This document shows positions 53,423-54,577 of a DNA stretch of 64,000 nt, one piece after another; the first letter of the stretch is position 1, and each line of letters begins with the position of its first letter. Source of the DNA: Moorella sp. Hama-1 (GTDB taxonomy: Bacteria; Bacillota; DSM-521; Neomoorellales; Neomoorellaceae); contig NZ_AP024620.1 in NCBI RefSeq assembly GCF_023734095.1, forward strand, positions 2,104,501-2,168,500, read 5' to 3'. Both the position numbers and the translations under genes were made by a program. Below the pieces are notes generated by a model, which saw nothing but the letters and a program-made list of their open reading frames with translations, ran no database searches and was not told the origin of the DNA.

Positions 53423-53785
53423 TTAGGCAAGCCCCAAATACTCTTTATACCGCGCTGCCTCAAAACCAACCAGTAGGCTGGTACCTTCACTCAGGAGCGG
53501 GCGGACCATTATCCGGGGATAGTCGTGGATTAACTGGGCGATCTCTTCCGCCCCCATGTGTTCCAGGTCCGGTTGGACCTTTTTAAATAGTTGACTCTTA
53601 GTATTAACCATACCGGCGGCCGGAAAACCTCCCCGGGCCGCCAGTTCCAGTACTTCGGCAACGGCCAGGGGCTCTTTCTCCAGATCCCGGTAAGTGTAGC
53701 GCACGTTATTAGCGGAAAGCCACGCTTTCGCCTTCTGGCAGGTCGTTCACCTGCTTACGCAGTAAAAGACGAATTCTTTGGCCAT
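53423..53785 (-). CDS. Selenocysteine-containing ArsC/Spx-like protein
   Basis: Reading through the in-frame TGA at 53749-53747 (codon 13) yields 120 aa: MAKEFVFYCVSR-U-TTC, then QKAKAWLSANNVRYTYRDLE, NTKSQLFKKV, RPLLSEGTSLLVGFEAARY. This is a complete ArsC/Spx fold in which Sec takes the place of the catalytic Cys of the CxxC motif. The ATG has GAGGAG 8 nt upstream, better than any start after the TGA, which would remove the active site. A SECIS-like hairpin follows. The role is likely thiol reduction of arsenate or protein disulfides. Confidence 0.85.
53712..53746 (-). promoter_or_regulatory. SECIS-like element of the Sec ArsC/Spx protein
   Basis: The hairpin GAAAGC-GUG-GCUUUC (53729-53715), extended by GC/GC pairs after a bulge, begins its loop 23 nt after the UGA. 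It matches the glutaredoxin element with one compensatory pair change. Confidence 0.75.
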
Positions 53786-53913
53786 TGCTATCACTCCTCA
53801 ATCTCATTCTCCCCTTCCGGAAATCTGGTGCCATGGTAATCTGCTTGCAAGCGGTCAACCAGACCATCGCAGCGAGGGCGACTGGCGGGAATCCTGGTAG
53901 CGAGTCAGGATGC

Positions 53914-54336
53914 TTACCGGGCTGGTGCGCGCCCGGCCGGGCCGGGCAGGTTAAACAGTCCACACCAGCAGCGGCCCTCTTTATGCACCCTGTTCGACCG
54001 GGCGTCGAGGCAGGGACAGATATTTTCCGGCACGTTATCATAACGGCAGGGACAGAAAAAATCACCGTAGCGTTGCTGTTTCTTCAATAGACCGTCGATG
54101 AACAACTCCTTGTCTTCGTTAAAAACATAACCGCGTAACCGGGCGAAGTTGTCAACCCGCGCAGTTATTTCCGTCCTGGGAGCCTGGGGCAGTTTGCGGA
54201 CCTGTAGTTCCGGCGCCCCAGTCGTTATTTCCAAACTGGCGCCGCATATGGGGCAGATCAACACCTGACCGGGTCCCCCGGCATCCCGAAAGACGAACGT
54301 CGCCCTGCACACAGGGCAAAAAATTTTACTGCTCAT
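53914..54336 (-). CDS. Ferredoxin:thioredoxin reductase-like protein with zinc ribbon
   Basis: The 140-aa protein fuses an N-terminal zinc-ribbon or rubredoxin-like knuckle (CPVC at 7-10, CPIC at about 28-31) to a domain with three CxC pairs: FFCPCR, ICPC and RCWCGLF. The latter is the arrangement of the FTR catalytic subunit, whose [4Fe-4S] cluster and disulfide pass ferredoxin electrons to a thiol protein. It overlaps the glutaredoxin gene by 11 bp, so the glutaredoxin is the probable partner. Confidence 0.8.
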   Translation of the reverse strand: MSSKIFCPVCRATFVFRDAGGPGQVLICPICGASLEITTGAPELQVRKLPQAPRTEITARVDNFARLRGYVFNEDKELFIDGLLKKQQRYGDFFCPCRYDNVPENICPCLDARSNRVHKEGRCWCGLFNLPGPAGRAPAR

Positions 54337-54577
54337 TGCTTAGCGCCGCCAGGATTTCCTCCCGGTGATAACCCCTGATCACCCTATCGTTGATCACGAT
54401 TACCGGGAAGGATTGCTGGCCGGTCAATTTCCGCACCTCCTCCAGCGCCCTGGCCGCCACCTCATCCGGGGCCAGGTCAACGTCGATCAAATCATAGGTA
54501 GCCCCTTGCTCGTTAAGCAATTGCTTGGTCTTCATACAGTACGGGCAGGTACTCAGGGCATAAAGTTTAATGGTCAT
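54326..54577 (-). CDS. Glutaredoxin
   Basis: The 83-aa protein has the CPYC active site (LYALSTCPYCMKTKQLL), the cis-Pro in SFPVIVI and RGYHREEI at the end. The ATG at 54577 follows a GGAGAG-type site. It probably takes electrons from the FTR-like protein encoded just downstream. Its promoter is sigma-H-like. Confidence 0.9.
   Translation of the reverse strand: MTIKLYALSTCPYCMKTKQLLNEQGATYDLIDVDLAPDEVAARALEEVRKLTGQQSFPVIVINDRVIRGYHREEILAALSNEQ

Follow-up and report, generated by a model that had tools for sequence, protein, structure and literature searches.

Selenocysteine is probably encoded by an in-frame TGA at the catalytic cysteine position of a Moorella ArsC/Spx-fold gene

In the 64,000-nucleotide stretch of Moorella sp. 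Hama-1 DNA analyzed here (the window), a small gene of the ArsC/Spx fold contains a TGA triplet at the place of its catalytic cysteine, which raises the question of whether this codon ends translation, marks a dead gene, or is read as selenocysteine (Sec). The frame is open except for this single TGA, and its N-terminus reads MAKEFVFYCVSR-U-TTCQKAKAWL... when the codon is translated as Sec (U). By the standard code, the same gene is read as a 93-residue fragment without an active site, and this is the open reading frame that mechanical prediction starts at GTG 53704. Such a product would lack the first strand, the first helix, and the active-site loop, and no ribosome-binding site lies in front of the GTG; the preliminary description of this DNA had likewise noted that a late start would leave a protein without an active site. 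That description instead placed the true start, with a good ribosome-binding site, ahead of the TGA, in agreement with the GAGGAGTGA element that precedes the ATG (Table 1). Moreover, conservation at the protein level extends upstream of the TGA: the YC ahead of U is invariant (as FYC or YYC) in a clade of 17 Sec-type sequences described below (the Sec clade), which implies that translation begins upstream of the TGA. We therefore regard initiation at GTG 53704 as highly improbable. The preliminary description also spoke of a second TGA, again at codon 13. This is true of the position, but the partner TGA belongs to a separate gene (ATG 46325; TGA 46289-46287, minus strand), located 7.5 kb from the ArsC/Spx gene. 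Its product, a UXX-star/YruB glutaredoxin-like protein, scores 69.4 bits against NF041212 (cut-off 66) and is a putative second selenoprotein in the window.

Table 1. Features of the ArsC/Spx-fold locus and its upstream neighbors (window coordinates).
Feature	Coordinates	Strand	Basis or remark
Putative ArsC/Spx-fold selenoprotein gene, 120 aa	53423..53785	-	ATG 53785, stop 53423-53425; translation with TGA = U
TGA codon 13, predicted Sec at the catalytic Cys position (Spx Cys10, R773 ArsC Cys12)	53747..53749	-	Alignment
Cys16 codon, predicted resolving Cys of UxxC	53738..53740	-	Aligned to Spx Cys13; C in 17/17 Sec-clade rows
Cys9 codon, 4 residues N-terminal of U, within a conserved FYC motif; occupies the R773 ArsC His8 position	53759..53761	-	C in 17/17 Sec-clade rows
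Shine-Dalgarno-like GAGGAGTGA ahead of the ATG	53791..53799	-	Sequence
Predicted bacterial SECIS hairpin, GUG loop 53723-53721, core stem GAAAGC/GCUUUC	53713..53731	-	Covariation and synonymous-shuffle test
Ferredoxin-thioredoxin reductase (FTR) catalytic beta chain with N-terminal zinc ribbon, upstream	53914..54336	-	Pfam FeThRed_B, 2.4e-12
CPYC glutaredoxin-like gene, upstream, overlapping the FTR gene	54326..54577	-	NCBIfam GlrX_YruB, 2.3e-15, below cut-off

A survey of 398 genomes of the same phylum, at a threshold of 1e-9 or better, detected a homolog in 76 genomes. A homolog with one TGA occurred in 28 of these 76 genomes (29 genes, 20 families), and all of the best 16 matches, the window gene counted among them, contain the TGA. 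Codon-by-codon extraction placed the TGA always exactly in the Cys column, which is encoded by TGT or TGC in the other homologs read. The window TGA itself falls exactly on Cys10 of Spx, such that UxxC, with U for the first C, occupies the CxxC redox center of Spx (residues 10-13). Replacement of the catalytic Cys by the TGA had been proposed in the preliminary description, which named residues other than Cys in this column of relatives as a refutation. In 53/53 homologs examined, the column contains only Cys or TGA, and this refutation therefore fails. Alignment of an in-frame UGA with the redox Cys of homologs is the pattern by which selenoprotein genes are recognized.

These results bear on the alternative that a catalytic Cys codon mutated to TGA and left a pseudogene. 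Both TGT and TGC are one change from TGA, and the gene was present in none of the 10 other sampled genomes of the genus, which implies that it is dispensable there. However, the same TGA recurs across genomes and families, the frame stays intact after it, SelB is present in all TGA genomes, and the hairpin described below covaries. The shared TGA column in practice already refutes the pseudogene reading, to which we assign almost no probability.

The host genome possesses the Sec machinery (tRNA-Sec, SelA, and SelB), and its formate dehydrogenase FdhA likewise carries one in-frame TGA. Across the survey, SelB scored over its curated cut-off in 28 of 28 TGA genomes compared to 17 of the 47 genomes with Cys versions (Fisher p 4e-9, among related genomes that are not independent).

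A predicted bacterial SECIS hairpin follows the TGA (Table 1). Its GUG loop starts 23 nt past the UGA, and the element resembles described bacterial SECIS elements (PMC1088965) in its location soon after the UGA and in the G of its small apical loop. Among 16 Sec genes, two-sided changes were found in 4 of the 8 hairpin pairs, and covariation was 0.276 compared to 0.110 after shuffling, a signal that collapsed when the pairing partner was slid by 1-3 bases. Because the hairpin lies within coding sequence, folding was also compared to that of shuffles made by synonymous-codon replacement. Sec genes gave more stable folds than did their shuffled versions (mean z -1.97), whereas Cys genes did not (+0.36; p 1.5e-7); the window gene's own hairpin showed only a modest gain over its shuffles (p 0.076). 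The UXX-star gene contains almost the same element (GAAAGA-GUA-UCUUUC), also 23 nt after its UGA. In the ArsC/Spx gene, comparative data support a mechanism in which SelB bearing Sec-tRNA would bind the hairpin just past the UGA and Sec would be inserted at codon 13. On these sequence comparisons, the window gene is very probably a real selenoprotein gene that is intact despite its in-frame stop codon.

The kinship to ArsC and Spx claimed in the preliminary description held up. The window protein matches Pfam ArsC (PF03960) at 6.9e-13 and 49.2 bits (gathering score 24), and the solved structures closest to it are those of Spx (~2e-15). Other members of the Sec clade pass the NCBI Spx/MgsR model; the window protein falls below the curated cut-offs. 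NF041106 (ArsC_rel_Se_1) was rejected as its family, since the window protein scored only 31.8 bits, far under the cut-off of 85, and across 119 genomes of the phylum this model gave no match that reached its cut-off. When genome contigs were scanned with the window protein alone, one distant relative was the only hit, and a single-sequence structure prediction of the protein was poor (mean pLDDT 53) and was set aside.

In a tree of 53 homologs, the window gene sits in the all-Sec group of 17 rows, near Cys-type Spx, and most of the remaining Sec genes fall among Cys genes in an ArsC-like group; at least 5 switches between Sec and Cys are required by branches with good support. Support for the Sec clade as a single clade apart from Spx was 88/81 in the first tree and 58/0 in the tree without long rows, where the Sec clade plus Spx separated from the rest at 96/89. 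From these trees, we claim only that the Sec clade and Spx together stand apart from the other homologs, and the Sec clade alone appears weakly supported. The 17 genes of this Sec-only branch come from 12 sampled families. A wider reading is that such a branch, neighboring Spx and spread across many families, performs a selenol redox reaction or sensing that is new to ArsC/Spx, and that Spx arose beside or within it; we consider this unlikely. Elsewhere among the homologs, one genome (G368) contains two Sec ArsC-like genes ~2.7 kb apart (L043, 1-4967), and the ArsC-like Sec proteins of loci L044, L048, L049, L050, L052, and L053 have UxxA, UxxV, or UxxS, and so are without a resolving Cys at that position.

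What the protein does was approached through its residues. The Sec clade keeps Cys16 of UxxC, Cys9 (4 residues N-terminal of U), and the equivalent of Arg94/Arg92, the last missing in one truncated row. His8, Arg60, and Arg107 of R773 ArsC have roles in arsenate reductase. His8 is replaced by Cys and Arg60 by Asn in 17/17 clade rows, and no residue aligns with Arg107; of the R773 set of Cys12 with Arg60, Arg94, and Arg107, the window protein retains only Arg94. These replacements stand against a genuine, selenium-containing arsenate reductase that supplies the arsenite exporter of the genome, as does the distance of ~750 kb between the window gene and ACR3. In favor of this reading are the ArsC fold, the conserved Arg94, an ArsR-ACR3 pair in the host that is not accompanied by arsC in the stretch examined, a weak phosphatase-like match as the only candidate for a pI258-type reductase, and the fact that the window gene is the sole match to the query in the host genome. 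On balance, we find an arsenate reductase doubtful. Beside the ArsR-ACR3 pair lies a gene with many near-identical repeats (L116, 327-1406, minus strand; RQEMKEGLGSLEGRLNQS).

The Spx-like nearest structures and the clade members that pass the Spx/MgsR model would fit a different role, that of a regulator that senses redox state through its selenol and, like Spx, binds RNA polymerase. However, Gly52, Arg47, and Arg91 of Spx, which we take to be its RNA-polymerase contact residues, are found in only 2/17, 3/17, and 1/17 clade rows, respectively; the window protein has P and A at the Gly52 and Arg47 positions, and the C-terminal tail is absent. A regulator of this kind seems improbable, more so than an arsenate reductase. 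To judge from its residues, the window protein appears to be neither a regulator of the RNA-polymerase-binding Spx kind nor a classical arsenate reductase of the R773 type. Because most of the ArsC arginines and the Spx RNA-polymerase contacts are absent, we infer that a selenol-dependent thiol oxidoreductase is the likeliest function, and we hold this with somewhat more confidence than doubt. In such an oxidoreductase, Sec13 of the small thioredoxin-fold product would attack the substrate, which may be a disulfide, a persulfide, or an oxyanion, and Cys16 would resolve the mixed selenide-sulfide; the enzyme may then be recycled by a glutaredoxin or thioredoxin.

The adjacent glutaredoxin-like (Grx) and FTR genes (Table 1) suggest a shared electron path to the Sec protein, but this is only a suggestion, and the electron donor is a guess, because the Grx-FTR pair recurs in 5 other genomes that each lack the Sec gene and neither the FTR nor the Sec gene was found in the 10 other sampled genomes of the genus. 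Conserved neighborhood was rejected as a functional clue, since contexts vary by genome and the Grx-FTR pair occurs without the Sec gene. Two relatives of the window's FTR beta gene (L112, 4032-4412, and L113, 4035-4430, both minus strand) have an in-frame TGA in their last Cys motif, which reads CYU compared to CWC in the window; a Sec form of FTR (NF041072, CxU) is already listed (PMC13188914). In several relatives (L064, L065, L067, and L069, and in part L068), genes of the AmmeMemoRadiSam type (an AMMECR1/LigB protein and a radical SAM enzyme) are located upstream of the Sec gene, and a functional link between these genes and the Sec gene is possible.

We take cd03032 to be the Spx subfamily of ArsC. 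ArsC-family selenoproteins were described from the Sargasso Sea (PMC1088965) and from genomes, as an ArsC-like protein in Desulfotalea and a distant homolog in Desulfuromonas (PMC1794560). The GOS survey reported UxxS and UxxC forms, the UxxC form as 'arsenate reductase 2', cd03032 (PMC2398784), and a 2026 review lists the ArsC family with the UxxC type under NF041106 (PMC13188914). These selenoproteins were already described in 2005-2008 in UxxS and UxxC forms, so the kind is not new. The preliminary description was therefore supported in where it placed Sec but not in calling Sec unusual for this fold, for which these UxxS and UxxC precedents exist (PMC2398784; PMC1794560; PMC13188914). We found no Sec form of Spx under that name in the literature, and ArsC is absent from the main texts of Deep-Sep and of the 2016 survey. 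The window gene belongs to a new, well-populated branch of the known ArsC-selenoprotein kind that is not captured by the NCBI model. Its recognition adds a widespread Sec-only branch to the ArsC/Spx fold, and the switches between Cys and Sec in the tree provide a natural series for testing how selenium benefits a single active site.

Among known systems, 'arsenate reductase 2' of the GOS survey shares with the window protein the ArsC family and Sec as the first residue of UxxC, but it was described from marine samples, and the window protein scores far below the NF041106 cut-off. Spx and Spx/MgsR proteins (NF002459, TIGR01617) are the best sequence match, have CxxC at the same position, and are adjacent in the tree; the window protein differs in having Sec for Cys10 and in lacking Gly52, Arg47, and the C-terminal tail. 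R773 ArsC (1I9D) has the same fold, catalytic position, and Arg94, but a CxxS instead of the UxxC motif, and its His8, Arg60, and Arg107 are not kept in the window protein. Finally, the UXX-star protein (NF041212) is also a small redox selenoprotein, encoded in the same window with the same hairpin geometry, but it belongs to the glutaredoxin family, whereas the window gene product belongs to ArsC.
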